Positions 272 to 26,036 of a stretch of DNA of 63,365 bases are shown piece after piece. The DNA is from Azoarcus sp. (GTDB lineage Bacteria > Pseudomonadota > Gammaproteobacteria > Burkholderiales > Rhodocyclaceae). The notes under the pieces are model-generated. The model saw only the letters and a list, made by a program, of their open reading frames with translations. It was not told where the DNA came from and made no database searches. Numbering within the stretch: the first letter of the stretch is position 1; each line of letters starts with the position of its first letter. Position numbers and translations under genes: made by a program. The DNA lies in NCBI GenBank assembly GCA_031285965.1, contig JAITVD010000040.1, forward strand, positions 1 to 63,365, read 5' to 3'.

Positions 272-295
272 TTTAGGGAAAATGTCGCATAACTT
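272..295 (-). promoter_or_regulatory. Shared leader motif, copy 1
   Basis: Read on the minus strand this is AAGTTATG, 11 nt, then CTAAA. It ends 80 nt before the ATG at 191. The same two blocks with the same 11-nt spacing occur before the genes starting at 25618 and 24806. It may be a promoter or a cassette junction; the sequence alone does not decide. Confidence 0.55.
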
Positions 296-544
296 GTGTA
301 TACCCCTACCAAAAGTGCCGATATACGCCCAAAATCGGATGTATACCCGCACCTTTGGTAGGTTTTATTTTTTTCTCCGGCTACCTCATGGCGTACTGAC
401 ATTTTCGATGCTCCCTGCGCTGACGTGCGTGTAGATTTTGGTCTCTTGCCCAAAGGCTTCCGAATGTACCGCAAATCCGTGCCGTTTTCGACGGGCGCGG
501 AGCGTGACCATGAATGTGCCGCAGCTTGCAAGCGCAAGTTTGCC
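288..544. repeat. Dispersed repeat, copy A (~257 bp)
   Basis: This stretch matches 25716-25979 in the same orientation with scattered substitutions and small indels. It contains an inverted repeat with arms at 306-326 and 341-361 and a 14-nt loop. The loop is identical to that of copy B. Here the arms have three mismatches, so the hairpin is decayed. A T-rich tract follows (362-374). A short open frame on the minus strand is partly conserved in both copies, but it overlaps the hairpin and has no recognisable domain, so I do not call it a gene. The rest of the interval 192-614 holds only AT-rich leader sequence and an unremarkable 70-bp tail after fliR. Confidence 0.8.
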
Positions 545-23921: not shown

Positions 23922-24102
23922 GCAGACGCATCGTAAAACGGGCTGCTTGGAGCTTATTTATATAATTTCATGCGCCAAGGATGGCGCTTGTGTAGGTAAA
24001 TGCGGGGTAAAAAGTATTTCTTTTATTTTAATTATTCAAACCAATTTTAGCCTGCCTTTCGCATACAGTCCTGTTATGTGAAGTTGCGGCATACTCCATA
24101 AT

Positions 24103-24806
24103 TTATTCCCACGGGAATTTTTTCTTTTCAATGCACGAGTTAATAATATCTTTAATTGTGTATACATCTAAGTATTTCTTATCAAATAATCGACCGGAAA
24201 TGCCAGCTTCTGATTTAAACATCAAGTTCATTTTTTCATCACTTAGAGTTTCTATCAAGTAACCGTTTTTCAATAATTCAATAGAAAAATGAAGTCCAAT
24301 CCTTACTTCATCGTCGTGTTCGATATTATATTGTTGTTCCAATAAAGGTAACATTTGATTGAAATTTAATCTCAGGCAAACATCCGCAACCTTTTTTCTT
24401 ACTTTGCTGCTTTTATCATGATAGGTCTTTTCTAATATATATCGGATAATATCTTCCGGCGGACGGTCTAACGTTAAGGTAACAGCGTTATATCTTATTG
24501 CACTACTTTTATCATTTACAAGTCGTTTGTATATCACCCTTACCTCTTCAAAATGGTATGACAGGCGACATATAAATTTACCGGAATATGTGCTAAACAC
24601 TAACTCGCTTGATTGTCGCATACCATACTCAAAAATATCAAACTGTGTTTTTGTCAAATTCTTTTTTATTTGTACACTATATGCACAATCAATCAGTTTT
24701 TGAAGAATATCTTTATACTTTTGTACCCCGTTTTGTTCAAATAGCTTAATGCAAGGGCTAATTCATTTTCTGTATCTTTTCTAAGTCCTAAGTCAAACTC
24801 ACCCAT
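24103..24806 (-). pseudogene. Frameshifted HEAT-repeat protein gene in AT-rich island
   Basis: The start is an ATG at 24806 (MGEFDLGLRKDTENELALAL). At about 24745-24748 (CTTA) the frame is lost. Adding one base restores continuous coding into the downstream frame (LFEQNGVQKYKDILQKLID and on to the stop at 24103), giving about 234 aa. The longer 3' frame alone would start from a TTG at 24657. Residues in the second half show HEAT-like helical repeats (DKSSAIRYNAVTLTL, DKSSKVRKKVADVCLRL). The DNA is AT-rich compared with purE next door. It is either a real single-base deletion or a sequencing error. The function is unknown; a role as an immunity or scaffold protein is speculation. Confidence 0.72.
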
Positions 24807-24869
24807 AAAATTTGTACATCCGGTCTGGTATTCTTCACTATATATATTTTTTATATATAATCAACAAAC

Positions 24870-24893
24870 TTTAGAGGCGATTTTACATAACTT
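24870..24893 (-). promoter_or_regulatory. Shared leader motif, copy 3
   Basis: AAGTTATG, 11 nt, CTAAA on the minus strand, 63 nt before the ATG of the HEAT-repeat gene. Unlike the other two copies it is not followed by the large hairpin repeat. Confidence 0.5.
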
Positions 24894-24922
24894 GTATTTA
24901 TGCGAAGTAAGGGCGTACCCTA

Positions 24923-25618
24923 TTATTCTCTCTCAATTTTCTTTTTTATTTCATCAAGTTGTTCTGCTACTGCTTCCTGATATAGTTCAGGTCCATCATG
25001 ATCACAATTCCAAAAATTCGTATACCCAGTTGATTTATTTAAATCATTGGGATTGGGTTTTACTGCTTCTGTTGCTTCTAATAACCCTAGTTTATTATTT
25101 TTTGAATATTCCAATGCTTTTATAAATACATTTATTCTATTATGTGAATAATAACTATTCAAACTGTCTTTTATTTTATCCTTGGTATTATAATCTTCTA
25201 ATAATTTAACAACACCTTCAAAGGGAATATATATGCCGGAACAATAATTTTCAGTGATTCTATTGTTTGTTTTGTTTTTAATTTTCCGACTAATAATATC
25301 TTCCCATTTTTTTGTATATTTTATAAAATCATTGTTTTCTTCAATCAAAAACGAAAATGCTGAGCCACGAGTGTAAAAAAATTTCCTGAAAAATCCTTGA
25401 ACAATGGCTATATAAAATCCATGTGTTTTATCAAATATTTTCCTATCGTCAACCTGCAACCCTGCCATAATGCAATTAGTATATTTGTTTTTATAAAAAT
25501 CGTCCATATTATATTCTTTAGCGAGCGTATCTATTTTTTCTTTATTTAGAAAAATGTCAAAATACCATTCTTCAATTTCTTTTTCAGAAATTGGATGATA
25601 GGTTATATCGTATCCCAC
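24923..25618 (-). CDS. Unknown protein in AT-rich island (possible immunity-type protein)
   Basis: The GTG at 25618 is preferred because GGGGGG lies 7 nt upstream; it gives a 231-aa protein starting MGYDITYHPISEKEIEEWYF. The product is acidic, Lys/Asn/Tyr-rich, with no signal peptide or clear membrane segment. I do not recognise a named family with confidence. The style (small cytosolic protein, AT-rich, paired with a HEAT-repeat gene and a dispersed repeat) is that of immunity genes in polymorphic toxin loci, but no toxin is visible. It reads in the same direction as the HEAT gene, 116 nt upstream of it. Confidence 0.72.
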   Translation of the reverse strand: MGYDITYHPISEKEIEEWYFDIFLNKEKIDTLAKEYNMDDFYKNKYTNCIMAGLQVDDRKIFDKTHGFYIAIVQGFFRKFFYTRGSAFSFLIEENNDFIKYTKKWEDIISRKIKNKTNNRITENYCSGIYIPFEGVVKLLEDYNTKDKIKDSLNSYYSHNRINVFIKALEYSKNNKLGLLEATEAVKPNPNDLNKSTGYTNFWNCDHDGPELYQEAVAEQLDEIKKKIERE

Positions 25619-25699
25619 AACTTCACCCCCCAAAAAATATATTCATTGTATACCTTTTTTAAAAAAGATCAACTATTATTTTTATATTTTCAAGCCATT

Positions 25700-25723
25700 T
25701 TTAGCGCCTATATCACATAACTT
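25700..25723 (-). promoter_or_regulatory. Shared leader motif, copy 2
   Basis: AAGTTATG, 11 nt, CTAAA on the minus strand, ending 81 nt before the GTG at 25618. It sits at the edge of repeat copy B, as copy 1 does at copy A. Confidence 0.55.
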
Positions 25724-25979
25724 GTGTATACCCCTACCAAAGGTGTGGGTATACGCCCAAAATCGGATGTATACCCACACCTTTGGTAGGTTTTATTTTT
25801 TTCCCCGCTTGCCTCATGGTGTACTGACATTTTTGATGCTCCTTGCGCTGACGTGCGCGTAGATTTTGATTGTGTTGCTGCTTCCAACAATTTTTGAATA
25901 TGCCGCAAATCCGTGCGGTTTTCAACAGGCGCGGGACGTGGCTGCGAACTGTGCCGCAGCTTGTAAGCGCAAGTTTGCC
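25716..25979. repeat. Dispersed repeat, copy B (~264 bp)
   Basis: Matches 288-544 in the same orientation, with scattered differences. In this copy the inverted repeat is perfect: two 21-nt arms (25734-25754 and 25769-25789) around a 14-nt loop. The hexamer GTATAC occurs three times, once just outside the hairpin and once in each arm. In both copies the repeat lies directly upstream of an AT-rich minus-strand gene. The interval 25619-26093 holds only this repeat, the shared leader and the yijF-like terminator. Confidence 0.82.
25734..25802 (+). terminator. Long perfect hairpin with T-tract inside repeat B
   Basis: The 21-bp stem is followed on the plus strand by a G and then a tract of 11 Ts broken by one A. 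It has the form of an intrinsic terminator for plus-strand transcription, but no plus-strand gene precedes it. It could shield the minus-strand cassette from antisense reading, or act as a recognition structure for mobility. Confidence 0.45.
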
Positions 25980-26036
25980 ACCCCCCACTCCCACTGTTGC
26001 CTAGCGGCGACATTCCCTTCCAGGAGGGAGGCTATT

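Follow-up and report, generated by a model that had tools for sequence, protein, structure and literature searches.

A short motif, AAGTTATG-N11-CTAAA, occurs three times in a 63,365-nt contig of Azoarcus sp. (JAITVD010000040.1; this whole stretch is termed the window here). The motif very probably marks the 5′ end of gene cassettes, and the palindromic leader preceding two of its copies an attI-like insertion point, of an integron-type gene-capture platform that employs a XerA-like recombinase.

An exact-pattern search of the window placed the motif at 272-295, 24870-24893 and 25700-25723, all on the minus strand, where 100 dinucleotide shuffles gave an expectation of 0; no further copy appeared when up to two mismatches were allowed. 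Both these positions and the gene starts at 191, 24806 and 25618 agree with the initial annotation, which described three genes behind a common 24-nt leader and proposed a family of cassettes moving with a shared promoter, regulator site or recombination junction. The starts stand, but the gene at 24806 is not intact (in-frame stop at ~24693, second open piece at 24657-24103) and that at 191 is incomplete, cut by the contig end. Likewise the motif is common to all three, but the likeness between the copies at 272 and 25700 extends well beyond 24 nt (79% identity over 359 aligned columns) and the copy at 24870 has no leader. The genome-wide pattern search suggested by the annotation, covering 2.34 Mb in 90 contigs, found four exact copies and none of the reversed pattern used as control; a one-mismatch scan, confined to 12 fetched pieces of the genome, added seven. 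In line with the annotation's prediction of further hits before small AT-rich genes, all 11 copies are followed by an open frame (frames below 45% GC were considered), and the sequence up to 300 nt 3′ of the motif is 22-30% GC; the window outside the inserted block described below is ~62% GC.

The nature of the motif is indicated by pairing between each cassette start and its own end: the first ~18 nt pair with the last ~18 nt of the same cassette. Over the 15 cassettes of this genome with both ends, start positions 7-18 pair at 153 of 180 places, whereas 20,000 own-genome permutations averaged 110.8 and reached 134 at most. N11 differs between cassettes and the far ends differ to match, while position 11 is unpaired in all 15, with A opposite C. 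Such pairing is a requirement of a circular integron cassette, because cassette start and end form one site. It assigns AAG to the leader, G/TT (the slash marking the boundary) to the junction, ATG-N11 to the arm and CTAAA to conserved bases after the arm, so that the motif reads as the beginning (~20 nt) of a gene cassette and not as a regulator box.

A transcription or regulator site common to immunity-type genes would be another explanation. Of the 12 cassette genes scanned, four match immunity families above the Pfam cut-off (three Imm11, one SUKH-4), and each of 14 cassettes has a TTGACA/TATAAT-like pair after the motif with three mismatches or fewer (7.8 expected from Markov-resampled pieces; mean mismatches 1.5 versus 3.35). 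Yet this pair lies outside the motif, starting 26-58 nt into the piece taken from the cassette start, and so the motif as promoter is not borne out; moreover N11 varies in step with the cassette far end. We regard a regulator site as extremely unlikely. Among the options first proposed, the recombination junction is the one we favour, and the resemblance to a cassette family holds.

The leader at 272 and 25700 consists of the decayed 3′ end of a tyrosine recombinase gene, a palindrome and GTATACACAAG/TT. This repeat gave 21 BLAST matches in the genome, six of them opposite-strand matches of the palindrome, and is often near contig ends. Counted by hand, it extends through the core in 11 places and is represented by its left part only in three (C64, C78a and C85). 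Contig C5 (locus L033) holds a complete unit, in which an open 294-amino-acid tyrosine recombinase frame (L033:2995-3879) is followed by a leader containing two direct repeats, AAGTTATAT, a gene of the Imm11 family and the first part of a large palindrome. Contamination seems unlikely, since the rest of C5 is 60% GC like the host. On C78 a decayed leader precedes two cassettes, each with a large palindrome at its end. As a BLAST query the palindrome gave 36 matches in this genome and none in the 20 other genomes of the genus; attC-like DNA is thus present in one of 21 genus genomes, namely the recombinase carrier. Decayed recombinase ends without a full leader, each with a gene after it, were also seen (L027:116-404, L034:1760-1896, L036:4496-5761); by eye, the C85 (L036) end precedes a GGDEF-like gene and the C64 (L034) end an HD-domain-like gene.

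Dispersal of this kind recalls a non-autonomous repeat similar to a miniature inverted-repeat transposable element, which would have spread with a shared promoter region and come to lie by chance before AT-rich genes. Consistent with this are the decayed recombinase ends of the dispersed copies and their starts, 8 of 13 falling within 9 nt of one recombinase-gene point when compared with the intact copy; C12a and C25 extend beyond this on the left by ~95-100 nt, which resemble the sequence flanking the C56 copy (judged by eye to be the xseA end). At the common start (window 25944 and 484; L026, L028, L029, L034, L036) ~25 further nt, AAACTTGCGCTTGC, are shared, as judged by eye. Such a repeat does not predict the pairing of a cassette start with its own end, or the occurrence in another phylum of an intact recombinase accompanied by a similar leader and sites. 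Taken as a complete explanation it is largely refuted and very improbable; it may describe the dispersal of the leaders.

The enzyme of C5 scores 230.8 bits against NF040815 (XerA; NCBIfam site-specific tyrosine recombinase/integron integrase), above the cut-off of 220, and 213 bits in two stretches against TIGR02249 (integron integrase), below the cut-off of 265. Its closest solved structures are archaeal XerA, and its alignment to the Vibrio cholerae integron integrase (2a3v) breaks where that protein has 62 residues and this one 20. In a 62-row alignment, whose Bacteroidota enzymes come from 20 of the 80 loci described below and in which 'Xer' is our own row label, the insertion segment of the catalytic domain measures 22 residues in our enzyme and in all 20 Bacteroidota enzymes and 22-28 in 29 Xer rows, versus 63-66 in 12 IntI; by this comparison the IntI insertion is missing. 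All 62 rows share the active-site residues R151, H241, R244, H267 and Y276; the alignment of the lysine column is unreliable. In the tree our enzyme groups with Bacteroidota (support 97/99), and both group with IntI against the Xer rows (100/99), on midpoint rooting only, with the root unknown and a program warning of long branches; one Xer-labelled row (L120) sits on a long branch beside IntI.

A further recombinase match, at 33% identity, is on contig C62 of the same genome. Across 59 other kin-search genomes there was no match above 40% identity over most of the protein, with short C-terminal matches up to 58%, and phage records hold 12 relatives at E<=1e-40, of ~36% identity or less. Two recombinases from other families of the order (G386:C19:6543-7358 and G046:C46:1520-2335) may also lack the IntI insertion, because their integron-model match is split as in our enzyme.

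Comparable loci are found in Bacteroidota, where we analysed the best 80 of at least 543 relatives from one scan; 25 of these loci have <1 kb downstream. In 63 of the 80 loci the leader core follows the recombinase stop codon; among 1735 control pieces it was found in 28. A palindrome with at least 10 of 12 positions paired is formed by 44 of the 63 leaders (shuffles: 10.0 of 63). Folded sites, 118-136 bp long, number 42 downstream of the recombinase, in 21 loci, and 0 upstream; controls gave 0.9 in shuffles, 1 on the opposite strand and 4.0 with other core triplets. A strict site finder gave 14 downstream and 1 upstream, and a loose one, dropped because it discriminated poorly, gave 83 downstream against 55 upstream in 358 kb and 56 in shuffles. 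The finder kept is length- and spacer-limited, and its contrast is partly fitted because it was tuned on the same loci after the loose-finder result; the independent checks are inner-helix covariation and arm permutations. One chance-looking site (L091:8126), removed before alignment A1, is included in the 42 downstream sites and in the arm-pairing counts given below. The consensus fold has 24 pairs, 21 with two-sided changes. Its inner helix (columns 20-28 with 107-116) is a fair test, since the picking rule relied on outer stems, and there two-sided changes occur in all eight pairs, each of which is broken or gapped in 1 to 8 of the 41 sequences. The arms of 21 Bacteroidota cassettes self-pair at 141 of 210 positions, where permutations gave a mean of 88.0 and at most 111; none of the 21 is paired at position 11.

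Model R1 found 105 matches in the 80 loci at E<=0.01, 41 of them its own input sites; 101 of the 105 are downstream on the plus strand, in 45 loci; the remaining four are two minus-strand shadows of plus-strand matches and two upstream matches. By recombinase match alone (E<=1e-70), 82 of 295 Bacteroidia genomes carry the enzyme. All 20 carriers chosen have R1 sites, 2-46 each and 254 in total, with same-contig, same-strand arrays behind the recombinase in six (G130, G060, G112, G142, G085 and G075). These genome counts are lower bounds, 86 candidates having been scored per genome; carriers were chosen among the stronger matches, G060 contains R1 training sites, and the non-carrier G090 (0.5 Mb) was left out.

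The Bacteroidota loci bear on a third explanation, an ordinary integron, in which the array was built by a canonical IntI elsewhere in the lineage and the XerA-like gene had no part in it. In its favour, IntI scores above the family cut-off in 51 of 100 kin-search genomes, including five members of the genus (G009, G011, G012, G013 and G016), and the blaVEB-1 cassette discussed below indicates that such a site can sit among typical multiresistance cassettes. But the genome of the window has no IntI above the family cut-off, the one genus genome with attC-like DNA is the recombinase carrier, the leader core follows the XerA-like gene in most Bacteroidota loci, and R1 found no match in 12 IntI loci. 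We consider an ordinary integron improbable.

Several points nevertheless weigh against a platform run by the XerA-like enzyme. Recombination itself is deduced from sequence; no excision, integration or circle was observed. Pairing is imperfect, five of the 15 own-genome cassettes reaching 10 of 12 positions or fewer (10, 10, 9, 7, 7) and window cassette 2 only 7 of 12; the window cassette ends are decayed. The leader core is unmatched in 17 of the 80 Bacteroidota loci, two of them with <100 nt available, and its pattern was written after those leaders had been seen; 35 of the 80 lack a downstream R1 match. Of the 19 Bacteroidia genomes chosen as lacking the recombinase (E<=1e-70), 12 also have R1 sites (78 in total, up to 17), and the genome of the window, where the sites are of a longer variant, gives 0. 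The leader dispersal in this genome is neither predicted nor explained by cassette recombination. Finally, the available text of PMC8138268 calls the IntI insertion essential for integron function and reports it as not fully conserved in an integron-like subgroup, so an insertion-less enzyme may act differently, or may already be counted in that subgroup. Among the genomes without the recombinase, G072 and G074 have 17 and 13 R1 sites; such genomes possibly hold orphan site clusters or more distant enzymes.

In the platform that we propose, the recombinase gene is followed within ~100 nt by a palindromic attI-like leader ending ACAAG/TT, and then by cassettes in the same direction as the recombinase. 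A cassette starts at the TT of G/TT and carries a promoter-like sequence and usually one AT-rich gene (here some of immunity type: Imm11, SUKH-4); it ends in an imperfect palindrome, the outer arm of which pairs with the start of the same cassette. Recombination at G/TT would excise the cassette as a circle, the cassette site would fold as one strand, and the XerA-like tyrosine recombinase would join the cassette either to the leader or to a second site. The enzyme belongs to a clade lacking the IntI insertion and otherwise seen here in Bacteroidota. This genome, which is not of that phylum, would have acquired the platform, its leaders spreading to 11 places and, truncated, to three more; most copies retain only the decayed recombinase 3′ end, the leader and a cassette.

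Relatives of the recombinase also lie beside resistance genes. At E<=1e-60 they are carried by 41 of 72,556 plasmids, three of which were opened. In Acinetobacter p80-1-2-tetX3 a truncated relative lies directly before tet(X3) (L216:3519-5540) and in Klebsiella michiganensis p2 directly before blaVEB-3 (L218:3633-5254), and in each case the interval between the two genes contains a GTT core. The third plasmid, of Chryseobacterium, carries a full-length relative with four R1 sites behind it on the plus strand. Both truncated genes have their highest identity, 54% and 60%, to Bacteroidota rows, against 39% at most to Xer and IntI rows. Among 30 VEB plasmids listed of 50, six match the full query, 23 start at query 77-88, at or just after the predicted core (G at 80), and for one the match begins where the record itself does. 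The contexts of blaVEB-3 and blaVEB-1 part at the predicted G/TT, and VEB genes on other plasmids have sequence in common with the blaVEB-3 platform only from the predicted core onward. The Escherichia coli plasmid L221 carries cmlA5, blaVEB-1, aadB and dfrA14 in a row, which we take to be an array of class 1 type. Its blaVEB-1 cassette (L221:1504-2579) begins with GTTAGCGGTAATTT, as does the blaVEB-3 cassette; the arms pair over 10 nt, a mismatch and 3 nt, position 11 being unpaired, and the attC fits R1 (E 4e-7). The other sites of L221 gave no R1 match, but they are shorter. That tet(X3) is a cassette is less sure, because three inner arm positions are unpaired and the site is cut off. Repeats of 135 bp are reported around some blaVEB genes in the available text of PMC3668210; we claim no link to them, as a search of three VEB records found none of at least 40 bp.

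Features of the window are collected in Table 1. Homology to L033 by blastn, leader included, spans 25710-25944. Arms of cassette 1 pair at 9 of 12 positions if the missing final C is allowed. Its gene matches no Pfam family above cut-off, and the second piece of the cassette 2 gene has a weak HEAT-repeat likeness below the Pfam cut-off. The 63-amino-acid piece of the third cassette gene has no Pfam match and a likeness, by eye only, to the Imm11 proteins of sister cassettes. Rfam at gathering thresholds found no match in the whole window. The genes flanking window 23.9 and 26.1 kb, 2.2 kb apart here, are ~200 nt apart in G009 and 29 nt apart in G011, so that these two genus relatives show the empty insertion site. 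In the six other loci compared, the flanks do not both fall inside the locus sequence, and at the C78 locus left-flank adjacency was not seen in the same comparison. A type VI secretion region was considered for the flanks and rejected; the ten flanking proteins scanned include FliP, FliM, FliK and metabolic enzymes.

Table 1. Platform-related features of the window
Feature	Position	Strand	Basis or remark
Decayed 3′ end of tyrosine recombinase gene	25815..25944 (approximate)	-	blastn against intact locus L033
Leader palindrome, two 22-nt arms exactly complementary	25733..25790	-	self-BLAST
Motif: leader AAG, G/TT core (25721/25720) and first arm of cassette 1	25700..25723	-	pattern search
Cassette 1	24897..25720	-	final C absent from end arm, hairpin lost
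AT-rich gene of cassette 1, no assigned function	24923..25618	-	open frame
Motif: start of cassette 2	24870..24893	-	pattern search
AT-rich gene of cassette 2, frame-broken	24103..24806	-	open reading frame analysis
attC-like site, left half (end arm, AAC, stem); right half missing	24060..24090	-	sequence
Inserted block	24000..25983 (approximate)	-	flanking genes close together in two genus relatives
Decayed recombinase 3′ end, second leader copy	380..484 (approximate)	-	blastn against L033
Leader palindrome, second copy, less exact	305..362	-	self-BLAST
Motif: leader end, core, first arm of third cassette	272..295	-	pattern search
AT-rich gene of third cassette, start only, cut by contig end	1..191	-	open frame

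The platform resembles integrons (IntI/attI/attC; class 1 and sedentary chromosomal) in its G/TT-bounded cassettes, unidirectional arrays and AT-rich cargo, in folded attC-like sites with two outer stem pairs (R and L) at cassette ends, and in what looks like an attI beside the recombinase gene. It differs in that its recombinase lacks the IntI insertion, its leader lies at the 3′ end of the recombinase gene with cassettes in the same direction as that gene, and the cassettes of this genome carry their own promoter-like sequence. Platform arms, moreover, pair over ~10-18 nt with position 11 unpaired, whereas the classical integron core is 7 nt. XerA and XerC/XerD are like the enzyme in sequence family and structure, as described above; unlike them it is linked to cassettes and a palindromic leader, and in the tree, with the reservations given there, it groups with IntI and not with the Xer-like proteins of relatives.

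Also close are the xerD/tpnF-tet(X) and recombinase-blaVEB-3 contexts on plasmids from human and animal bacteria, which have a truncated relative before a resistance gene and a GTT core between. In print the tet(X3) context is given as xerD-tet(X3)-res-orf1-ISVsa3 (PMC7494873) and as ISCR2-tpnF-tet(X3)-hp-hp-ISCR2 (PMC7722449). The available text of neither paper calls the tet(X3) context an integron platform. Targeted literature searches, with preprints outside their coverage, found no description of such a platform, and it is against those searches only that the system can be called undescribed, as the initial annotation had it. According to the IntegronFinder 2.0 paper (PMC9024848), IntI can be distinguished from other integrases by its extra domain, and in Bacteroidetes itself one complete integron was found (Salinibacter ruber).

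We lean towards a broader view, in which these platforms form a second integron class at home in Bacteroidota, with a XerA-like recombinase lacking the IntI insertion, folded sites and long paired arms; this class may resemble the ancestral state of IntI and may have supplied blaVEB-type cassettes and the tet(X) region to human and animal bacteria. If it is true that more than a quarter of Bacteroidia genomes carry a platform missed by searches of the IntegronFinder kind, a large reservoir of gene exchange would have gone uncounted. Comparison would then allow the role of the IntI insertion to be tested, and the pieces of recombinase in front of tet(X) and blaVEB would gain a reading.
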